A stretch of DNA of 64,000 bases from Rhizobium sp. SG_E_25_P2. Its GTDB lineage: Bacteria > Pseudomonadota > Alphaproteobacteria > Rhizobiales > Rhizobiaceae. Location: positions 124,001 through 188,000 of the forward strand of contig NZ_JARXVM010000002.1 of assembly GCF_029892285.1 (NCBI RefSeq), read 5' to 3'. Under the pieces are notes generated by a model that was given only the letters and a program-made list of their open reading frames with translations, had not been told where the DNA came from and did not search any database. How positions within the stretch are numbered: position 1 is the stretch's first letter; the number at the start of each line of letters is the position of its first letter. Made by a program: the position numbers and the translations under genes. This document shows, piece after piece, positions 3,584-51,903 of the stretch.

Positions 3584-4122
3584 GCAGCCTGGCCCTGGAG
3601 CGCGCGCGCGCCAAAAATCGCAAAATTCCCGACGACGAGGTGATCTACGCCGCCATCAAGGCCGGGCACGATCATTTCGAGATTGCCGCAGCGCATGGCG
3701 GCGAACCGGGGCTCATTCGCATGCATATCAAGCGCAAGGGATGGGACAAGGGCGCGCCGCTCGAACTGGGGATGCGGGTGTGGCCATCGGATGCGCAATT
3801 CTCCGCATGGATCGATGAGGGGTTGAGCCATTTCGACATGGCCGGGGCGACCGGATTTCACTGCGACACGATCCGTCAGCGCCTGAAAATGCGCGGGCTT
3901 TGGGAGGCCTATCAAGCCAAACAAAGCGCGATCAAGGCTATCGCGCGCCCATCGCGCAGCCAGCGGCGACCGGAAAATGACGGCAGGCGCGTGGTGCTGG
4001 ACGGGATCACCAGACCTGACGGGACGCGGATCGCGGCGACGGTGTCGCTGCCGCGCGTGAGCATGATTGCGGGCTGGAAAGGCAAGCCGGACTGGCGGGA
4101 CGGCGAGGGGGCGGGGGTATGA
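3580..4122 (+). CDS. Hypothetical HTH-like early phage protein
   Basis: The start overlaps the upstream stop (ATGA, 3,580-3,583). The 180-residue protein contains two helix-turn-helix-like segments: DDEVIYAAIKAGHDHFEIAAAHG (given as about residues 19-41) and FSAWIDEGLSHFDMAGATG (about 72-90, followed by CDTIRQRLKMRGLW). The second resembles the recognition part of Gcr/homeodomain-like DNA-binding folds. The C-terminus is basic and probably disordered. A DNA-binding role is likely but the target is unknown. Confidence 0.65.
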   Translation: MSSLALERARAKNRKIPDDEVIYAAIKAGHDHFEIAAAHGGEPGLIRMHIKRKGWDKGAPLELGMRVWPSDAQFSAWIDEGLSHFDMAGATGFHCDTIRQRLKMRGLWEAYQAKQSAIKAIARPSRSQRRPENDGRRVVLDGITRPDGTRIAATVSLPRVSMIAGWKGKPDWRDGEGAGV

Positions 4123-4868
4123 ATGCGCTCACGCCACTGGATAGTTCCGGCACCATTACGCTCGTCGACATGGATAGTTCCGGCATCGTCGCGCTCATCG
4201 ACCGGGCGCGAAGCCTTTTTGACGAGGGCGATGTGATGAATGCGCGGCTGATGGCTGGCGCTGCCTATGACCAGGCGGCGCAGGCGGTGAAGCTGGCGGA
4301 AAAGGTGCAGGCTTCAGAACGGCTGCTGGAGAAATCGCGGCGGATGCATGCGGACGCCTTGATTATAGAGTCCCAGTGCAAGATCCGGATTGCCGAACTT
4401 TGGAATGCCGCGAAGGCTGAAGGGAAAGTCTCGCCAGGTGGGCGCCCAAAGGCCGGGAAACAACGCCTTCCTACGGCGGTGGATTTTGGGGCCACTCGCA
4501 AGGAGTTGCATGAATTCAACATCATCCGCAGCGCGGAAGAGAGATCGCCGGGCCTGATCTCTAGACTGGTCAGTGAACGGCTCAAAATGAGGCTTGCCCC
4601 AAGCAGGGCGGATATTGTCAGAGCGGCAAAAAGCTGCGCCTCACAGGCTAAAAATAACCCATTTACCGGCCTGAAGTTACGCTCTGGCGAGAGGATCGCC
4701 GAATTGTCGTGGCGAGAAATTGAGCGTGTTTTGAAAGATCACGAAGAGGACATTAAGCTTCTTCGGCGTGTGATGGCGATCGGAGTTCCCGCCTCAGAAG
4801 AAGTCAAGGTTCGCGAGATCATCAGCGCCGACAAGCTACGCGAGATCGTTGGCGAGGTGCGCCGATGA
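4119..4868 (+). CDS. Paralogue of the methylase N-terminal domain
   Basis: The 249-residue protein overlaps its neighbours by ATGA on both sides. Residues about 25-180 align by eye with residues 20-170 of the next gene product (shared FDEGDV/FDDGDL, AR..A...Y..A.QA..LA.K, IES.C.I.IA, K.LHE...IR, L.PSRA). It lacks the methylase and FtsK-gamma parts and instead ends in a charged helical tail. The shared domain is largely alpha-helical and its role is unknown. A tandem duplication followed by fusion or loss explains the pair. It may serve as a partner or competitor of the longer protein. Confidence 0.7.
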   Translation: MNALTPLDSSGTITLVDMDSSGIVALIDRARSLFDEGDVMNARLMAGAAYDQAAQAVKLAEKVQASERLLEKSRRMHADALIIESQCKIRIAELWNAAKAEGKVSPGGRPKAGKQRLPTAVDFGATRKELHEFNIIRSAEERSPGLISRLVSERLKMRLAPSRADIVRAAKSCASQAKNNPFTGLKLRSGERIAELSWREIERVLKDHEEDIKLLRRVMAIGVPASEEVKVREIISADKLREIVGEVRR

Positions 4869-6496
4869 ACGCGCCAGCCATTGTGACCAACCAAGATTTC
4901 ATTGCCAAGCAAGACGATATCGAATGCGCCATTCGCGAAGTGCAGCGCCTGTTCGACGACGGCGATCTGGCGCGCGCGCGGCACTTGGCGCGTCGGGTTT
5001 ACAACGAGGCGGTTCAAGCGTCGGACCTGGCGAACAAGGCCAAAGTATCCGAAGAGCTGCGGGCAAAGGCGCGGCTGTTGCGGGCCAATGCCGTGCGGAT
5101 CGAATCTCTCTGCACGATCTCGATTGCCGACTATGTCGACGATGCGCAGGCCAAAGGGATGATGCCGAAAAAGGGTAGGCCGAATAATATTTCCGTTGGA
5201 AATATTTTCACGCTGGACGATCTCGGCATGTCGCCGAAACAGCTGCATGAGGCGCGCGCGCTGCGCGACCATGTGCGCACACAGCCGGGCTTTATCGATG
5301 CGGTTATCCAGACGCAGCTTGACCAAGGGCTGGAGCCGTCACGCGCCGCCGTAAAGCATGCGATCGGCACCAAAACCGCCAGCAAGGAGGATCGCGGCGA
5401 CAATCTTTACCAGACGCCGATCGAGGGCATTCGCACGCTGATGGCGCGTGAGCGGTTTTTGCCCATCGTGCTGGAGCCTTCCTGCGGGCGCGGGGCGATT
5501 TCCGGGCCGATGGGGGAGGCGGGGTATGACGTCATCCTCTCCGATCTCAATGATTACGCGACAGCGGACAGGCATGGCGAGCTGCAGCATGTGGCGGATT
5601 TCCTCAGCCTGACGCGCGACCAGGTGCTGGGCTGGACAGGGGGCGACGACTTCGACCTGGTGACCAATCCGCCCTATGGCGATGTGCTCAACGGCTATAT
5701 CGCGCATGCGCTGAAGCGCATCAAGCCGCGCAAGATGGCGCTGCTGCTCAACCTGAATTTCCTGTGCGGCCATACGAGCGAGGACCGCAAGCTGGCGCGG
5801 GAGACGGCGAGCCGGATCATCGTGCATGTGCGGCGCCTGCCGATGATGCATCGCGACGGCTGGGAGGGCAAAGAGGCCACCAGCCAGATGAACACGATGT
5901 GGCTGATCTGGGAGCGCGACGCGGAGGGCGGCTATAGCGGGCCTGCCGTGACCGAATATGCCGATTATGAGGACTATGCCTCCGGGCCGGTGATGTCGCC
6001 GCTCGGCTGGGCGGATGTCGTGAGGGCCGGCGAGATCCCGATCGAGGAGGATGACGAGGATTTCACGCGTGAGACGCCGCGCGTGGCGATGGAGGACCGT
6101 GTGGCGGAGTTTCGTGCGGCCGCTGAGGCTTTCGTCGCGGCGCGCGACAGCGTGACGATGGTGGAGCTGCGCAAGGCATTGAGCGTGCGGCAGCTGCTTG
6201 CCGAGGCGCTGATTGCCGATCTCATCGAACGCGGTTTGATTTTAACGCCTGACGGCGATGGGTGGTGTTTGCGCGCCTTGCCTGGCGGCATTCAGCCGTA
6301 CCCGGCGCAGGTCGACGACGAAGGCTATGCGCAAGCGCTGGTGCTGGTGCGCAAGACGGGCAAGGCGAGCGCGGCGATGCTGCAAAAGGCCATGCAGATC
6401 CGCTGGTATACGGCCAATGCGCATGTGGAGCGGATGGAGCGCGACGGCGTGGTGAGCGCCAAGAATGCGGCCGGGCGGCGGCAGGTGCTGGCATGA
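4865..6496 (+). CDS. N6-adenine-type DNA methylase fused to an FtsK-gamma DNA-binding domain
   Basis: This 543-residue, four-part protein starts with a domain (residues 15-170) shared with the upstream gene. The methyltransferase core follows: SAM motif I LEPSCGRG (203-210), the acidic end of strand 2 (ILSDLND, 224-230), and catalytic NPPY (268-271). A winged-helix-like segment lies at about 395-450. The last ~65 residues match the FtsK gamma domain (YAQALVLVRKTGKAS, ending GVVSAKNAAGRRQVL), which in FtsK reads KOPS sequences. The probable role is phage DNA modification with sequence targeting through the gamma domain. Methylation at adenine N6 is inferred from NPPY. The fusion is unusual. 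Confidence 0.8.
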   Translation: MNAPAIVTNQDFIAKQDDIECAIREVQRLFDDGDLARARHLARRVYNEAVQASDLANKAKVSEELRAKARLLRANAVRIESLCTISIADYVDDAQAKGMMPKKGRPNNISVGNIFTLDDLGMSPKQLHEARALRDHVRTQPGFIDAVIQTQLDQGLEPSRAAVKHAIGTKTASKEDRGDNLYQTPIEGIRTLMARERFLPIVLEPSCGRGAISGPMGEAGYDVILSDLNDYATADRHGELQHVADFLSLTRDQVLGWTGGDDFDLVTNPPYGDVLNGYIAHALKRIKPRKMALLLNLNFLCGHTSEDRKLARETASRIIVHVRRLPMMHRDGWEGKEATSQMNTMWLIWERDAEGGYSGPAVTEYADYEDYASGPVMSPLGWADVVRAGEIPIEEDDEDFTRETPRVAMEDRVAEFRAAAEAFVAARDSVTMVELRKALSVRQLLAEALIADLIERGLILTPDGDGWCLRALPGGIQPYPAQVDDEGYAQALVLVRKTGKASAAMLQKAMQIRWYTANAHVERMERDGVVSAKNAAGRRQVLA

Positions 6497-6798
6497 GCGC
6501 GGCGCTGCCAATCATCGACGAACTCAACGACATGGGCGCGCGGATGACCGTGGCGGCCTGGCTGCAGCGCTGCCCGCTCGGGTTGATCGCCCTGCATCAC
6601 GACAAGATCCGCAAGCTGCTGATCAAGAAGGGCTTTGCCGAGGCGGTGACATGCCTGGAGGCGGAGCTGGCGCTGTCCATGAGCGTGCGCGCGCCGGACG
6701 GGACATTTCAACAGGGGCCGAATTTCAGCGCGCATCTGGCGCGGGGGGAAATGCGGATTGCGGCCAAGGGGCCGGAGAGGGACGGGGGGCTGGCATGA
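6493..6798 (+). CDS. Hypothetical early phage protein (101 aa)
   Basis: The start overlaps the upstream stop (ATGA) and the stop overlaps the next start in the same way, so it is translationally coupled between the methylase and the replication gene. The product is predicted helical with an MTVAAWLQRCPLG segment and no recognised domain. It is small enough to be an accessory factor of the replication protein, but nothing in the sequence proves this. Confidence 0.6.
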   Translation: MSAALPIIDELNDMGARMTVAAWLQRCPLGLIALHHDKIRKLLIKKGFAEAVTCLEAELALSMSVRAPDGTFQQGPNFSAHLARGEMRIAAKGPERDGGLA

Positions 6799-8162
6799 GC
6801 CAAGTCAGATTTTCAGTGATCCCCGCTTGGGTGGTGACGGATCCGCGCCTGAAAGGGCGGGATTTGCAGGTGCTGTGCCTGCTGGGCCGCCATACCGATC
6901 GCGGCGGATGGTGCCGGCGCAGCCAGGTGAAGATGGCCGGTGAAATGGGCGTGGCGCGCTCTACGGTGCAGGCGTCGCTCGATCGGCTGTATGGTCTCGG
7001 CGTCGTAGAGAAACATCAGCAGCAAAGCGCCGATGGCCGCGACAGCGCGCATTGGTATCGCGTCATTCTTGACCAGCCGCCGCCGGCGGGCTTTGCATTT
7101 GCTGCATGGCTGAATGAGGACGGTGAGAATGATATTTCCGAGACTGAGGACGTTGCCGAAAATGCTGGCTCCACCCCTGCCGATATATCGGCAGGGGGTG
7201 CCGGTCCAGAGCTGGCACCCCCTGCCGGCTCTGGACCGGCACCTATTAACGTCCCCTCTTTAACGCCCCCTGATCAACGAAAAGAGAGAGAGGGCGCGAG
7301 CGCGAGGTCTGGAGGAGCGAGAGCAGAGACGGCTGTGGATGACGAGGGCGACGACGAGGCGCGGCTCTTGCGCCGGGTGAAGGCGATGGAAGTTGGGCGC
7401 GGCGGCGGACAGGCCTGGCCGGGATGCATCGGATCATCGACGAGTTGGGCGGCGGGACATTTCGCCAAGCTGACGCCTGAGGAGCGGCGGACGGCCGAAG
7501 AACGGCGCGACGCCTATCTGGCGCTCTGTGCTGCGCAGAAGGTGAAGCCGGTGGCGCTGGGCGTGTATTTCCGCGACCGGAAATGGGAGGGCGTGGCGGA
7601 TGCGACGATTGCAGCGCGGGCCGCGTCGCGCATCAAGGCCGCGCCGTTCGGGCCTGTGTGGGCAGGCATGAAGGCGCTGGCGCTGGCGGCGGGGCCGAAG
7701 CGGATCGAGCTTCCTGATGATGTGCAACGCGAGGTGACGGCGGCCTATGAGGCGTTTGCGTCGCGCTCAGCGACGACAGCGAGCCGCTATCTGATCAGCA
7801 AAGGCCTGCGGGTTGAGGGCGGCAGGCTGGTGTTTCCGGCTGATTTTCGCGAGCGGGAGATTGCGCGGCGGGTGACGAGCCAAGGATATCCCGAGGTGAA
7901 CCATCTGCATGACGAGGCGGGAAAGCGCGAGGCCGTGGTGTGTGAGGCGCGGTTTGCGGGGCTCAAGGATCTCTGCGAGCCGGTTCCTGTCGGCTCGGCG
8001 CTCTATGAAGCGTGGCGGGCTGAGCATGAGCGGCGCGGCTGGCCTTGGCATCCGGACCCCGGCGGCATGCGGGTGGTGTATTTCCCCAAAGGCGGGCCGG
8101 AGGGATTTGACGCTTGGTCTGAGGCGGCGAAGTCGGCGGTGGATGGAGGCGAGGGATGCTGA
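6795..8162 (+). CDS. Phage replication protein with N-terminal winged helix
   Basis: The protein has 455 residues and starts at the ATGA overlap at 6,795; the frame is open farther upstream but that part lies over other genes. Residues 1-95 form a winged helix of the HTH_36 type (PRLKGRDLQVLCLLGRHTD; SQVKMAGEMGVARSTVQASL), as in many phage and plasmid initiators. Residues about 110-170 are a Pro/Gly/Ala linker. The C-terminal part holds amphipathic helices and no visible helicase motifs. The linker DNA contains a dense inverted-repeat block at 7,174-7,243. The lambda O gene carries its origin in the equivalent place. It probably starts phage replication and recruits host helicase; this is inference. 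Confidence 0.7.
   Translation: MSQVRFSVIPAWVVTDPRLKGRDLQVLCLLGRHTDRGGWCRRSQVKMAGEMGVARSTVQASLDRLYGLGVVEKHQQQSADGRDSAHWYRVILDQPPPAGFAFAAWLNEDGENDISETEDVAENAGSTPADISAGGAGPELAPPAGSGPAPINVPSLTPPDQRKEREGASARSGGARAETAVDDEGDDEARLLRRVKAMEVGRGGGQAWPGCIGSSTSWAAGHFAKLTPEERRTAEERRDAYLALCAAQKVKPVALGVYFRDRKWEGVADATIAARAASRIKAAPFGPVWAGMKALALAAGPKRIELPDDVQREVTAAYEAFASRSATTASRYLISKGLRVEGGRLVFPADFREREIARRVTSQGYPEVNHLHDEAGKREAVVCEARFAGLKDLCEPVPVGSALYEAWRAEHERRGWPWHPDPGGMRVVYFPKGGPEGFDAWSEAAKSAVDGGEGC
7174..7243. repeat. Nested inverted repeats, candidate phage replication origin
   Basis: A perfect 24-bp palindrome (7,174-7,197, centre GATATATC) runs into two mutually exclusive hairpins. The first pairs GGCAGGGGGTGCC (7,190-7,202) with GGCACCCCCTGCC (7,214-7,226). 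The second pairs GGTGCCGGTCCAGAGC (7,197-7,212) with GCTCTGGACCGGCACC (7,228-7,243). All lie in the low-complexity linker of the replication gene. Confidence 0.7.
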
Positions 8163-8797
8163 TGATGGCGCATATCCAGATCGACAAGGGCTTCGACATC
8201 CGCGCCATCAAGGACAGAATGACTGCTGAGGAGGCGACGATTGCGGTGTCGCGGATCGCCATGGCGAGCGAGACGGTGGCGGAGGAGTGCGACAGGCGGG
8301 TGTGGATCTGCCTGCATGTGCGCGCCGGTCGCGAGAAGATTGTGGAAAACCTCCTGATCAAGGCAGGCGTGAAGGCGCTCTCGCCGCGCTATGAACCAGA
8401 GGAAGTGGTGCGTCGCGGACGTAAGATCATCAAGCCTGGCGGGCCGATGTTGCCGGGTTATGTGATGGTGCATTGCGGGTATTTGTGGCAGGCGTTCGCC
8501 GGGCTTGAGGCGATCGAGCATGTGCATGGCGTGGTGGGCGGCGTGATGAAGCCGCTTGTGGTGAGTGAGAGAAGCCTGAATGATTTCATTGATTTGGCGG
8601 CTAAATCCGCCAAGGCGAAAGAGACGCCTTTGAACGGGTGGATGGTGGGCGAGACGGCGCGGATCAAGGCCGGGCCTTTCGTTTCTTTCGAGTGCAACAT
8701 TGTGACGCTGACCAAGAAGAAGGCGGAGGTGGAGGTCAGTATTTTTGGCCGTGCGAACAAGATGACATTGCCGCTTGCGACTCTCGAAAAACTGTGA
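8156..8797 (+). CDS. Phage NusG/RfaH-like transcription antitermination factor
   Basis: This 213-residue protein starts at ATG 8,156, seven bases inside the replication gene. After a ~47-residue extension comes an NGN domain (about 48-145: WICLHVRAGREK; MLPGYVMV at 98-105 in place of the usual FPGYVLV). A KOW domain follows at 161-213 (VGETARIKAGPF; ending MTLPLATLEKL). NusG paralogues bind the RNA polymerase clamp and make it ignore terminators. Immediately downstream lie a multi-hairpin RNA segment and an intrinsic terminator before the packaging genes. It is therefore likely to switch on the late operon. The family assignment is firm; the target is inference. Confidence 0.9.
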   Translation: MLMMAHIQIDKGFDIRAIKDRMTAEEATIAVSRIAMASETVAEECDRRVWICLHVRAGREKIVENLLIKAGVKALSPRYEPEEVVRRGRKIIKPGGPMLPGYVMVHCGYLWQAFAGLEAIEHVHGVVGGVMKPLVVSERSLNDFIDLAAKSAKAKETPLNGWMVGETARIKAGPFVSFECNIVTLTKKKAEVEVSIFGRANKMTLPLATLEKL

Positions 8798-8845
8798 GAG
8801 TCATTTGTCACTAGGACGAGTTGAGATCCCTGTGCATCCTTTGAC

Positions 8846-8995
8846 GCCATGGCAGGACCATGGCGGAGCGAGGCGAAAGCCTCCAGGCGGGTAGCCGGTC
8901 AACCCCTTTCCTGAGCCCCTCGGATGAGGGCAGCGATTCAGGGACAGTGCGTAAGCTATGAGATGATGACAGATGAGCCGGCGGAGACGCCGGCT
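8846..8995 (+). ncRNA. Structured leader RNA before the late operon (or cos region)
   Basis: The 214-bp gap between the NusG-like gene and the HNH gene holds no open frame but several hairpins. These are GCCATGG/CCATGGC (8,846-8,864), GAGGC-GAAA-GCCTC with a GNRA loop (8,870-8,883), GGGT/ACCC (8,889-8,905), CCTGA/TCAGG (8,910-8,942) enclosing GCCC(C)TC-GGAT-GAGGGC (8,916-8,931), and a terminator hairpin (8,976-8,995). It could be the loading site of the NusG-like protein, a small RNA, or the cos site of the terminase. Confidence 0.65.
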
Positions 8996-8998
8996 TTT
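8976..8998 (+). terminator. Intrinsic terminator upstream of HNH/terminase
   Basis: An 8-bp stem AGCCGGCG/CGCCGGCT with a GAGA loop is followed by TTTTGTGTGTTT. It lies only about 15 bases before the HNH gene, so late transcription must either pass it or start between it and the gene. Confidence 0.8.
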
Positions 8999-9011
8999 GT
9001 GTGTTTAGAGT

Positions 9012-9395
9012 ATGGTTCTCAAGTCTCTGCCTCCGCGCCTTGGCCCTGATCGTTCGCGCTCTGGCGGAAACTCAAGACAAGAGGCGGAAGCCGAGCGCTT
9101 GAGAGAGCGCGACCGTTCGGTCAAATGGCGCGGTTGGTATAAGACCGAGAGATGGCGCAGGCTGCGCGAAGAGGTGCTTATCCGTGATGGATACATCTGC
9201 CAACAAACGGGCGTGATCTGCTCGGGCAAGTATCCTGCGCGGAACAGTCCCGTCGCTGACCACAAAGAGCCGCATCGTGGCGATGAGGCGTTGTTCTGGG
9301 ATATCAACAATATCCAGACCGTCAGTAAGGAATATCACGACACGGTCAAGCAGAAGCAGGAGCGCGCCCAACCGCGCGGCATTCTCGACTTCTGA
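9012..9395 (+). CDS. HNH endonuclease of the packaging module
   Basis: This 127-residue protein has an HNH fold. A Cys pair (Cys63, Cys70) and the beta-beta-alpha core VADHKEPHRGDEALFWDINN (with His84 and Asn100) are followed by IQTVSKEYHDTVKQK (His109). The N-terminal ~40 residues are basic and charged. Genes of this type next to terminase are common in HK97-like phages, where the HNH protein (for example HK97 gp74) assists terminase cutting at cos. The ATG at 9,012 has only a weak ribosome site (AGAG). A cos packaging strategy is inferred from the pairing. Confidence 0.9.
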   Translation: MVLKSLPPRLGPDRSRSGGNSRQEAEAERLRERDRSVKWRGWYKTERWRRLREEVLIRDGYICQQTGVICSGKYPARNSPVADHKEPHRGDEALFWDINNIQTVSKEYHDTVKQKQERAQPRGILDF

Positions 9396-9474
9396 TCAAA
9401 GGGAGGGGGAGGGTCGAAACCTCAGACCCCTCATCCTATGGACCCGCGTCCCCCACATTCAGAGATTTTTTCCT

Positions 9475-9990
9475 GTGGTGAGCGAAATTTCTTCGGAGGC
9501 CAAGATCTTCGACCTCTTTGGAAAAGAGGTTGAGCCGATCCGTGACCGGCGTGGTCGTCCGTCGTTTAAGAAAGACAAGGCGAATCAAGACTTTGTCATG
9601 GTGCGCGTTGCTGCGGGCTGGACGCATAAGCGCATTTCCGAAGACATGGGCATCGACGAAAAGACTTTGCGCAAACATTTTTCCCGTGAGCTGGAAATGG
9701 GGGCGGTCTTTGTGGATGGGCTTATCCTTGATGTCCTTATGAAGCGTGTTCGTGATGGACATACGCCTTCGATCAAAGAACTGCGGGCAAGGCTGCAAGA
9801 GGCTGGGCCGCAAGCGCCTCGCAATCGGCCTGGTCATGGCAAGAATGAAGCCGATGACGAAAGCGAAGAGGACGCCGATGTCGCTGAAGTCGCCGCGCCG
9901 GTTGGTAAAAAGGAGCAGCGCATTCAGGACGCGCAGATGATCCCCGAAGATTACGGCGATATCTTCGAGCGCATGAACAGGCGGCATTGA
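9475..9990 (+). CDS. Terminase small subunit-like protein
   Basis: The protein has about 171 residues from GTG 9,475 (a second GTG at 9,478 is equally possible, and neither has a strong ribosome site). An N-terminal helix-turn-helix is visible (FVMVRVAAGWTHKRISEDMG, then IDEKTLRKHF), followed by a helical oligomerisation region and an acidic tail (DDESEEDADVAEV). This layout fits a small terminase that binds cos/pac DNA and hands it to the large subunit. The stop overlaps the large-subunit start (TGATG). Confidence 0.75.
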   Translation: MVSEISSEAKIFDLFGKEVEPIRDRRGRPSFKKDKANQDFVMVRVAAGWTHKRISEDMGIDEKTLRKHFSRELEMGAVFVDGLILDVLMKRVRDGHTPSIKELRARLQEAGPQAPRNRPGHGKNEADDESEEDADVAEVAAPVGKKEQRIQDAQMIPEDYGDIFERMNRRH

Positions 9991-11726
9991 TGAGCGGGGT
10001 TTCCTTTGCTTGTCCAGACTGGTTTGACCGGCTCAAGGATGGACGGACGCCTATCCCTGATCTTCCGCTCGATCCGGTTCTCGCTGATTGCGCTGTGGCG
10101 TTGTTCAACAAATTGCGAGTGCCCGATATTCGCGGCATGCCGACGATGGAGGAGGTCGCCGGTGAATGGATGCGTGACATCGTTCGCGCAGCATTCGGCT
10201 CCATAGACGCTGTCACCGGAAAGCGGTTTGTCGGCGAGGTCTTTAACCTGGTGCCGAAAAAGAACGGCAAGACGACAAACGCGGCAGCTCTCGGGTTGAT
10301 TGCGTTGATGATGAACCGGCGCCCGAACATAGACGGGATGATTGTTGGGCCGACGCAGGAAGTGGCGCAAAAATGCTTTGAGCAGGCAAGCGCCATGATC
10401 GCCGCCGACGAATATCTGAACCGGCGTTTTCGCGTTATCGAGCATAAAAAGACAATACTGGATTTGCATGTGGATCCCGAAACCGGCGTTCGCATGAATG
10501 CGAAGCTCAAGATCAAGAGCTTTGATCCAAAAGTGGTGACTGGCTCCATTCCTGCCTTCGCCATTCTCGATGAGCTGCATGTCATGGCGCATGCGAGCTT
10601 TGCCAGCCGCGTCATCGGGCAGATCCGGGGTGGGATGATCACGAATGAAGAAAGCCTTCTGATCATCATCACGACGCAATCCGAGGTGCCGCCGTTCGGT
10701 GTTTTCAAAGATGAACTGAATTATGCGCGGGGCGTTCGCGATGGCAGGATCACCCAAGACGTTCGCATGTTGCCGATCCTCTATGAATTCCCCGAGGCCA
10801 TGCAGATATCGCGCGACAAGCCCTGGCGCGATCCGGCGAACTGGCCGTTGGTGCTGCCGAATCTAGGACGATCGGTAACGGTTGATCGCCTTCGCTCGGA
10901 ATGGAACACCGCGCAGGAAAAAGGTGAGTCGAGCGCGCGTGAGTGGGCCTCGCAGCATCTCAATGTCCAGATCGGACTAGCGCTGCATTCTGATCGCTGG
11001 ATCGGAGCGGATTATTGGGAGGCGGCGGCGGATCGGCGCATCACACTCGACTATATCAAGCAAAACTCCGATGTTGTCGTTGTGGGCGGGGATGTCGGAG
11101 GTCTTGAGGATCTTTGGGGGCTTGCTGTTCTTGGCCGGCATAAGGTCACGCGCCACTGGATGCTTTGGGTGAAGGCTTGGTGCCAGCCGATCGTTCTTGA
11201 GCGGCACAAGGAGATTGCCGAAAAGCTGCGGGGGTTTGAGGCTGATGGCGATCTCGTCATTTGCGACCGCGTCACGCAGGACGCCGAGGAGGCCGCCGCC
11301 ATCATTGTTGATCTTCGTGATTGCGGCCTCCTGCCGAACGAGGGCGGCATTGGGCTCGACCCTGCTGGCGTTCCCGCGTTGCTCGAAGAGTTGGCGCTTT
11401 ATGGAGTTGGGTCGCCTTGCACGGCGTCTGTCAGCCAGGGTTACCGGCTTTCTGCGGCAATCTTCGGCACGGAACGGAAGCTGGCCGATGGAACTTTTAA
11501 GCATTGCGGATCTCCTTTGCTGCTTGATTGCGTTGGCAACGTCATGGCTGAAGCGCGGGGGCAGAACATCTATCTGCAGAAGCGTTCGGCTTCTGCAAAG
11601 ATTGACCCGCTGATGGCGGGATTCAACGCCGTCGAGATGATGAGCCGGAACCCGGACGCCGCAGTCGCTGCGACATCGCCCTGGGATGACCCCAATTTTT
11701 CGCTGTTAGGATCGCTCAATGGGTAA
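9990..11726 (+). CDS. Terminase large subunit
   Basis: This 578-residue packaging motor has an ATPase with Walker A VPKKNGKT (88-95) and Walker B AFAILDE (189-195), then a coupling region LLIIITTQSE. The C-terminal RNase H-like nuclease carries Asp in VVGGDVGG, with further acidic positions in VICDRVTQDAEEAA and IGLDPAG. It cuts concatemers and pumps DNA into the prohead through the portal. Length and motif order are those of HK97-family TerL. ATG 9,990 overlaps the upstream stop; an adjoining TTG three bases earlier is less likely. Confidence 0.95.
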   Translation: MSGVSFACPDWFDRLKDGRTPIPDLPLDPVLADCAVALFNKLRVPDIRGMPTMEEVAGEWMRDIVRAAFGSIDAVTGKRFVGEVFNLVPKKNGKTTNAAALGLIALMMNRRPNIDGMIVGPTQEVAQKCFEQASAMIAADEYLNRRFRVIEHKKTILDLHVDPETGVRMNAKLKIKSFDPKVVTGSIPAFAILDELHVMAHASFASRVIGQIRGGMITNEESLLIIITTQSEVPPFGVFKDELNYARGVRDGRITQDVRMLPILYEFPEAMQISRDKPWRDPANWPLVLPNLGRSVTVDRLRSEWNTAQEKGESSAREWASQHLNVQIGLALHSDRWIGADYWEAAADRRITLDYIKQNSDVVVVGGDVGGLEDLWGLAVLGRHKVTRHWMLWVKAWCQPIVLERHKEIAEKLRGFEADGDLVICDRVTQDAEEAAAIIVDLRDCGLLPNEGGIGLDPAGVPALLEELALYGVGSPCTASVSQGYRLSAAIFGTERKLADGTFKHCGSPLLLDCVGNVMAEARGQNIYLQKRSASAKIDPLMAGFNAVEMMSRNPDAAVAATSPWDDPNFSLLGSLNG

Positions 11727-33744: not shown

Positions 33745-33893
33745 AATTTCCGCTGTTGTCTGTCTTATGATTGTCGGGTCAACTATGCCTGCGGGCCCAT
33801 TCTGTGGGCGGCTTCACGTATTCGTGAATGCGAATTTCTTCGCGCTGCAAAATAATCTCTTGATTTTTGTGCGACGCAACATTACCTTGATAC

Positions 33894-34009
33894 TTGTCAG
33901 ACGGTTACTCCTCCTCCCAAACCCCTGACGACGACGGATAGCACTCCTCCTCCCAAGCTGTCTGTCATGATCAAGCCCGGCGCACCTCCTCCCGCGCCGG
34001 GCTTTTTTT
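33894..34009 (+). ncRNA. Cuckoo/alpha-r14-type small RNA with three anti-SD loops
   Basis: Three hairpins expose CCUCCU-type motifs in their loops. The first (33,896-33,929) pairs GTCAG/CTGAC and GGTT/AACC around CTCCTCCTCCC. The second (33,933-33,966) is a 10-bp stem GACGGATAGC/GCTGTCTGTC around ACTCCTCCTCCCAA. The third (33,974-34,003) is AGCCCGGCGC/GCGCCGGGCT around ACCTCCTCCC, followed by T7. This is the layout of the cuckoo family, which includes CcsR and alpha-r14 RNAs that bind ribosome sites of target messages. A CTTGATT box at 33,859-33,865 may be its -35 element. No DUF1127 gene is next to it. Confidence 0.85.
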
Positions 34010-51719: not shown

Positions 51720-51903
51720 CTGCGGTCTGCGCCTCTCGGCAGGAAAAATTTTCCTTGGGGCCATACTCGATCTTATGGGAGCTGTCCCTGTTTTGGCCTG
51801 TGGGCTGGAGCACATGGCGCCCACCTACTTTTGTAGGCGCCCAGGATCGAACTTCCACCGGTTGCCGTGGATCGTACTCTTCCCCAGATCCTCACCCGCA
51901 GAT
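51720..51903 (+). ncRNA. ssrS: 6S RNA
   Basis: A TATATT -10 box (51,710-51,715) lies behind the zapA stop. The predicted transcript is a long rod. It closes with CTGCGG (51,720-51,725) against CCGCAG (51,896-51,901), and continues with CGGCA/TGCCG and CCTTGGGGCC/GGCGCCCAGG pairs. Inner hairpins include GTGGGC/GCCCAC and CCTAC-TTTT-GTAGG. About 184 nt and the place after zapA fit 6S RNA, which binds RNA polymerase in stationary phase. The ends are estimated. The usual downstream gene ygfA is not here. Confidence 0.75.

Follow-up and report, generated by a model that had tools for sequence, protein, structure and literature searches.

The 64,000-nucleotide stretch of Rhizobium sp. SG_E_25_P2 DNA analysed here (the window) raises the question of how RNA polymerase reaches the late genes of a phage when an intrinsic terminator stands directly ahead of them, behind a gene for a NusG paralogue. 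The window evidently contains a prophage, since its NusG gene is 100% identical in one viral contig. The original prediction, made from the letters alone, had proposed a NusG-type antitermination switch guided by RNA or DNA. The layout on which it relied, with hairpins and an intrinsic terminator ahead of an HNH gene, the terminase and the structural genes, was recovered, and comprises the following features:

6465-8162, plus strand: replication-initiator-like gene (Rep; phrog_270, E 1.4e-38), directly upstream of NusG
8156-8797, plus strand: phage NusG paralogue (NGN and KOW; ORF calling, Pfam, PHROG, family profile)
8814-8962, plus strand: structured RNA element, conserved, starting at the GGAYGA box and ending shortly after P4 (alignment, covariation, model R1)
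8820-8903, plus strand: helix P1, GUUGA (8820-8824) with UCAAC (8899-8903), around a variable domain (covariation and fold)
8908-8944, plus strand: helix P3, 8908-8914 with 8938-8944 (covariation and fold)
8917-8930, plus strand: inner hairpin P3b, CCCUC/GAGGG (covariation and fold)
8945-8960, plus strand: tetraloop hairpin P4, CAGUGC-GUAA-GCUAUG, strongly conserved (consensus pattern; without covariation)
8975-9006, plus strand: intrinsic terminator, stem 8975-8996 followed by a T-rich tail (terminator scan)
9012-9395, plus strand: HNH endonuclease, the first late gene (ORF call, PHROG)
9987-11726, plus strand: terminase large subunit (TerL), among the late genes (Pfam, PHROG)

The HNH gene is followed by genes for TerL, portal, head protease, major head protein, tape measure, tail proteins and endolysin, all on the plus strand to about 31 kb, and from this common strand we infer that the late genes form one operon. 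On the other side of Rep, a phage DNA methyltransferase gene (phrog_799; 4865-6496) has a C-terminal FtsK gamma domain (Pfam, E 6e-13), and the ORF preceding it (4119-4868) likewise matches phrog_799. Rfam matches to ar14 sRNA and 6S RNA lie at 33890-34009 and 51721-51877, to the right of the phage genes.

The ORF at 8156-8797 encodes 213 amino acids; an in-frame ATG at 8162, which overlaps the stop codon of the preceding Rep-like gene, looks the likelier start (211 amino acids). Both an NGN and a KOW domain had been read into this protein. The former clearly exceeds its Pfam cut-off (45.8 versus 22.2 bits), whereas the latter falls below it (16.8 versus 22.3 bits) and is recognizable by the NusG family profile, whose positions 155-213 match the isolated C-terminal domain of NusG (PDB, 2kvq_G; E 5.3e-14). 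Residues 44-213 match PHROG 6386 (phrog_6386 'transcription antiterminator', E 3.5e-38), an entry that gives a family name only and has no RNA partner attached. Scores remain well below the cut-offs of the NCBIfam models for housekeeping NusG (TIGR00922; 54.4 bits, cut-off 135.7), LoaP (NF033641; 40.9 bits, cut-off 125), RfaH (TIGR01955; 21.4 bits, cut-off 144.5) and UpxY (NF033644; 44.3 bits, cut-off 100), and the host's own nusG sits on a different contig (G000:C19). The protein of the window carries an N-terminal extension of about 48 amino acids, which might confer specificity as the original prediction suggested. The whole phage NusG set forms 89 clusters under 80% identity, whose representatives have a median of 48 residues (range 22-65) ahead of the first NGN tryptophan; six housekeeping NusG proteins have 3 to 4. 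The protein alignment A3 holds 82 of the 89 representatives, those left out being the six named-phage proteins and L114.

Between 2.8 and 20 kb, both strands together contain 31 terminator-like sites, compared with 15.0 in shuffled sequences (sd 4.1). Most of them are weak, and the terminator ahead of the HNH gene, with nine pairs of which seven are G-C, has the most G-C pairs of all. Only 15 nt separate its stem from the HNH gene, which is too short for a promoter; the late message should thus come from upstream and pass the terminator, and a separate late promoter between terminator and HNH gene, an arrangement in which the protein would be dispensable, is disfavoured. This position of the terminator is a recurrent one. 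At 73 of 107 distinct loci P4 is followed within 110 nt by a terminator that satisfies a strict rule, as opposed to 22 of 1967 control windows from the same loci, and none of the loci has one between the NusG stop codon and P4; the terminator stem begins a median of 17 nt after P4. At five loci (L031, L038, L047, L057, L092) the element is present and a terminator was not found within 110 nt, and several of the 25 loci inspected among the 34 lacking a strict terminator have a weaker or more distant one. In L067 (682-758, minus strand) and L163 (4494-4570, minus strand) a tRNA-Met (CAT) gene is located directly behind P4, in the terminator's usual place. The gap to the late genes was surveyed at 84 distinct loci whose downstream ORFs are homologous, and a less strict rule finds a terminator at 68 of them. 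There the first possible in-frame start codon follows the stem after 3 to 45 nt in 38 loci and after more than 45 nt in nine, and in the other 21 an in-frame start precedes the end of the stem, so that the gap is not measurable there. On the plus strand from 9012 to 20 kb there are six terminator-like sites with at most four G-C pairs, and between 17 and 35.5 kb there are 11 such sites versus 14.1 in shuffles. Because the sites among the late genes are weak, processivity is not demanded, and it may suffice for a switch to overcome a single strong terminator, whether or not it also protects against Rho.

We consider it probable that at this locus a NusG paralogue guided by an RNA brings about antitermination where the early genes give way to the late ones, the two parts making up a self-contained late-gene switch. 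An early transcript would run through Rep into the phage nusG as the last early gene, and with the protein absent polymerase would halt at the terminator behind it. The NusG paralogue would join the elongating polymerase while its cognate RNA (P1, P3/P3b, P4) emerges, and the polymerase thus modified would pass the terminator into about 22 kb of late genes. The predicted guidance by a nucleic acid signal is supported by the conservation of the element together with NusG, and covariation points to RNA as that signal; antitermination itself we infer, and read-through, direct contact between protein and RNA and processivity over the late genes would be parts of the same scheme. The opposite role, in which the phage NusG would keep polymerase at the element through pausing or stronger termination and so delay the late genes, seems improbable to us. 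NusG of Bacillus subtilis does strengthen many pauses (PMC12691694, in part), and cassette and terminator are placed equally well for such a role. However, a protein made after polymerase has passed its gene would presumably block its own late genes, and functional data for several specialised paralogues favour antitermination (PMC7819879, in part).

The proposed switch requires a signal in the leader, and the element has a constant order: a GGAYGA box, P1, the variable domain, P3 with inner P3b, and the CAGUGC-tetraloop-GCUAUG hairpin P4. The model R1 matches the window at 8892-8962 with 68 bits; its second-best match there has 9.5 bits, and a strong second copy is absent from the window. All four helices are present in the minimum-energy fold of this leader, whose own row in the alignment is badly aligned at P3b (variable loop). 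Folding energy contributes little: the 214 nt from 8798 to 9011 have a z score of -2.43 (4 of 200 shuffles fold equally well), and without the terminator (8812-8965) the score is -0.75 (47 of 200). As the latter region folds no better than shuffled sequences, energy is weak evidence and covariation has to carry the case. A peptide coded in the leader was also sought, and stop codons were found in all three plus-strand frames at 88 of 110 distinct loci (22 without).

The element was found by reading downstream of NusG genes from the family survey and from six named phages. Alignments A1 and A2 consist of 62 representatives drawn from 96 sequences; R1 likewise contains 62 sequences, 36 of them themselves found through the P4 pattern. 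Among the 62 representatives, changes on both sides occur in five of five pairs of P1 (90.2% of cells paired), six of seven pairs of P3 (94.7%) and five of five pairs of P3b (74.5%), and 94.6% of cells pair in P1, P3 and P4 together. For P1, P3 and P4 the covariation score of 0.319 exceeds both the mean of shuffles (0.118; 0 of 500 shuffles as high) and the maximum obtained with a slid partner (0.085); for P3, P3b and P4 it is 0.211, compared with 0.103 in shuffles (0 of 500) and no more than 0.099 when slid. Since kinship alone can beat shuffles in the absence of structure, more weight belongs to the slid control and to the pairs changed on both sides. By this evidence P1, P3 and P3b are conserved as RNA structure. 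What the original prediction had counted as at least four hairpins is structured RNA indeed, but not a loose set, since the hairpins are, as far as the alignments tell, parts of one multi-helix element.

P4 is without covariation because it varies too little. At the 27 P4-bearing loci reached from NusG the loop of P4 changes as a unit, with GNRA at 19 and UACW at eight, and its stem and flank depart singly in, for example, L007, L010, L020, L025 and L213; P4 could be read as RNA or as DNA. Its strong conservation without covariation would suit a late promoter inside the element, in which case P4 would be read as DNA (as a TATG box resembling a -10 element or as a site like ops) and the terminator would merely end the early message. 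We regard this as distinctly unlikely: P1, P3 and P3b covary as RNA, the P4 loop is swapped as a whole, and with transcription starting at P4, the terminator would fall within the first tens of nucleotides of the late message. A promoter scan from 2.8 to 20 kb, which knows E. coli-type sigma-70 sites only, gave numbers at chance (5 versus 4.2 in shuffles).

If RNA and protein are partners in antitermination, they should occur together, and the searches in related phages and prophages largely bear this out. The P4 pattern alone retrieved 118 stretches from 2.9 million viral contigs (IMG/VR). Upstream sequence of 700 bases or more is available for 102 of them, and in 88 of these a phage NusG stop codon lies 96-165 nt upstream of P4; the other 14 have no P3 arm, as judged by eye in the bases printed ahead of the motif, and among the 16 stretches with less than 700 bases a NusG tail is still visible in nine. 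An earlier count on 80 stretches had placed 62 of 67 behind a phage NusG. A longer pattern including the P3 arm gave 44 stretches in 84,980 genomes, 43 from Rhizobiales by genus name and one from a candidate-phylum MAG; 41 of the 42 with at least 700 bases upstream stand behind a phage NusG, and the single miss is the MAG, with its match in apparently coding DNA. Both patterns fix consensus letters, so that diverged members elsewhere would escape.

Starting from NusG, with loci taken from among the matches listed in the family survey (further second copies therein unexamined), the element was recognized at 20 of 23 phage-type loci that the survey supplied and at one (L209) of seven more picked by hand, including L210, which was chosen after R1 had no match at its place; L212-L214, fetched since an RNA match was already known there, bring the total to 24 of 33. 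It is present in all six named phages examined, four Listeria/Salmonella records and eight uncultured or faecal phage records (23-28% identity) being unexamined for it, and in none of seven housekeeping nusG loci. In 24 host genomes chosen for a phage NusG, the strong model matches number 24 and all stand behind such a gene, with one weak match elsewhere. A single strong copy is present in all 23 records of phages or viruses that had been chosen for the element, with an additional 15.7-bit match in one. Scans of large genome samples with R1 were positive in 4 of 397 and 1 of 289 genomes, scoring just 12-17 candidates per genome and thus being no census. Two weak R1 matches from these scans, L159 (26.9 bits) and L160 (25.6 bits), and the weak one from the 24 host genomes, L215 (25.2 bits), were set aside, a phage NusG ORF being absent nearby.

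By R1, the element is absent from nine of the 33 phage-type NusG loci. Seven of these (L017, L023, L205-L208, L211) carry, behind a diverged NusG subfamily, a variant RNA without P4 and with the same P1 (GCCGA/UCGGC or CCUGA/UCAGG; five of five pairs in six loci, four of five in one). L016 has the start of the leader only and is neither element nor variant, and in L210 neither is recognizable; the genome of the latter (G222) encodes another phage NusG that does have the element. The element accompanies both phage NusG genes of genome G113 and all three of genome G081. With these exceptions, the hairpin region is conserved with the NusG gene across about a hundred distinct phage loci, as had been anticipated.

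Besides P1, the variant leader has a long P3-like hairpin, and in L047 and L092 its 5' part is joined to an ordinary P3-P4. Gene order, NusG and RNA element of Nostoc phage Nsp-JY10 (PP395642.1, L037) are as in rhizobial phages; it was deposited with a cyanobacterial host, which may be misassigned. The 50-kb circular Sinorhizobium medicae plasmid pMl3 (L216), with genes for a methyltransferase, an HTH protein, NusG and a terminase in addition to the element, looks like a phage-plasmid.

The two partners are also inherited together. A first Mantel comparison on nucleotide flanks (94 loci, RNA-NusG 0.62) was possibly saturated and was redone with proteins. At 99 distinct loci, in all of which the upstream Rep belongs to one BLAST-linked class, the rank Mantel correlation is 0.646 between RNA and NusG (0 of 300 permutations as high) and 0.050 between RNA and Rep (52 of 300). 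At the 53 loci with an HNH-class gene behind the element it is 0.723 for RNA and NusG and -0.026 for RNA and HNH (193 of 300). The RNA thus tracks NusG but neither Rep nor HNH, which means that the two pass on jointly while the genes on either side are exchanged, and gene and element together are, by this comparison, a cassette. Adjacency may explain part of the co-inheritance, as neighbouring sequences can be co-inherited without physical contact. That the RNA alone modifies polymerase in the manner of HK022 put, with the NusG gene as a mere neighbour, is very unlikely; two neighbouring stem-loops (P3, P4) precede the terminator and put RNA works by itself (PMC9378689, in part), yet the element closely adjoins the phage NusG gene and stays with it while the flanking genes change.

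Two further readings have next to no probability. The closeness of the terminator stem to P4 would permit an attenuator, in which the leader pairs with a terminator arm in one state and the protein does not antiterminate, but over 84 loci the complementarity of a leader to its own terminator arm does not exceed that to the arms of other loci (equalled or surpassed in 799 of 1000 shuffles). At 93 of 104 distinct loci an ORF of 90 amino acids or more lies downstream, and a packaging (cos/pac) or other DNA site beside the terminase would fit the 53 of these with an HNH-class gene but not the other classes of 18, 11 and 2 loci and nine singletons (the 18-locus class is annotated as putative minor tail protein in PPF1, the 11-locus class as hypothetical in phi2LM21), nor covariation of the RNA type.

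Within the antitermination reading, each diverged phage NusG might read its own co-inherited RNA, giving cognate and perhaps orthogonal pairs in which P4 docks on polymerase and the variable P1 domain sets specificity. We offer this tentatively and hold it for possible rather than probable; if true, the many cognate protein-RNA pairs would represent a new class of RNA-guided NusG antiterminator. The proposed switch would show a branch of phages that controls the step from early to late genes not by an N- or Q-type protein but by a folded RNA together with a relative of NusG, and would add an unlisted RNA family. The diverged pairs would be a natural set from which to learn how a NusG paralogue selects its operon.

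RNA-reading NusG paralogues and phage antiterminators are already known, and what is new here is the RNA family. We call it so because no Rfam family, annotated RNA feature or paper was found for it. Rfam searches of 8500-9500 at E up to 5 gave two matches, both outside the element, and Rfam 15 matched none of six P4-bearing relatives at E up to 1. None of the six named phages has an RNA feature annotated at the element, and in PPF1 a hypothetical protein is annotated over it. The titles and beginnings of abstracts in the open-licence literature searched contain no description of a phage NusG with an RNA partner, and PMC5537653 makes no mention of NusG, antitermination, terminator, late gene or RNA structure.

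Among known systems, the gene order of phage lambda is similar, with an early antiterminator, its site, a terminator and the late genes. Lambda Q also controls late genes by antitermination, but is an unrelated protein that loads at a sigma-dependent pause with a DNA element (PMC7171158, in part). HK022 put acts as nascent RNA and suppresses pausing and termination; in contrast to the element described here, which is paired with a NusG gene, it needs no protein (PMC9378689, in part). RfaH is, like the protein of the window, a NusG paralogue working on chosen operons, but reads the DNA element ops (PMC12691694, in part), whereas here an RNA structure covaries. Closest is LoaP with the dfn and mln operons of Bacillus, where a NusG paralogue, guided at dfn by a small leader hairpin, is likewise paired with a cis leader RNA before an intrinsic terminator and a long operon behind (PMC12691694, in part); the terminator behind the RNA is a trait shared by the window and most of the related loci. 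The LoaP hairpin is small, of the UNCG type and found in antibiotic operons (PMC12691694, in part), whereas here a multi-helix RNA carries a GNRA or UACW P4, a UNCG-type loop being absent from P4, the one loop compared, at the 27 P4-bearing loci. Unlike in LoaP, the element occurs in phages found in Rhizobiales and adjoins the protein's own gene. LoaP is the RNA-reading NusG paralogue that we found described, and a second, differently built solution from phages would make the rules of recognition testable.
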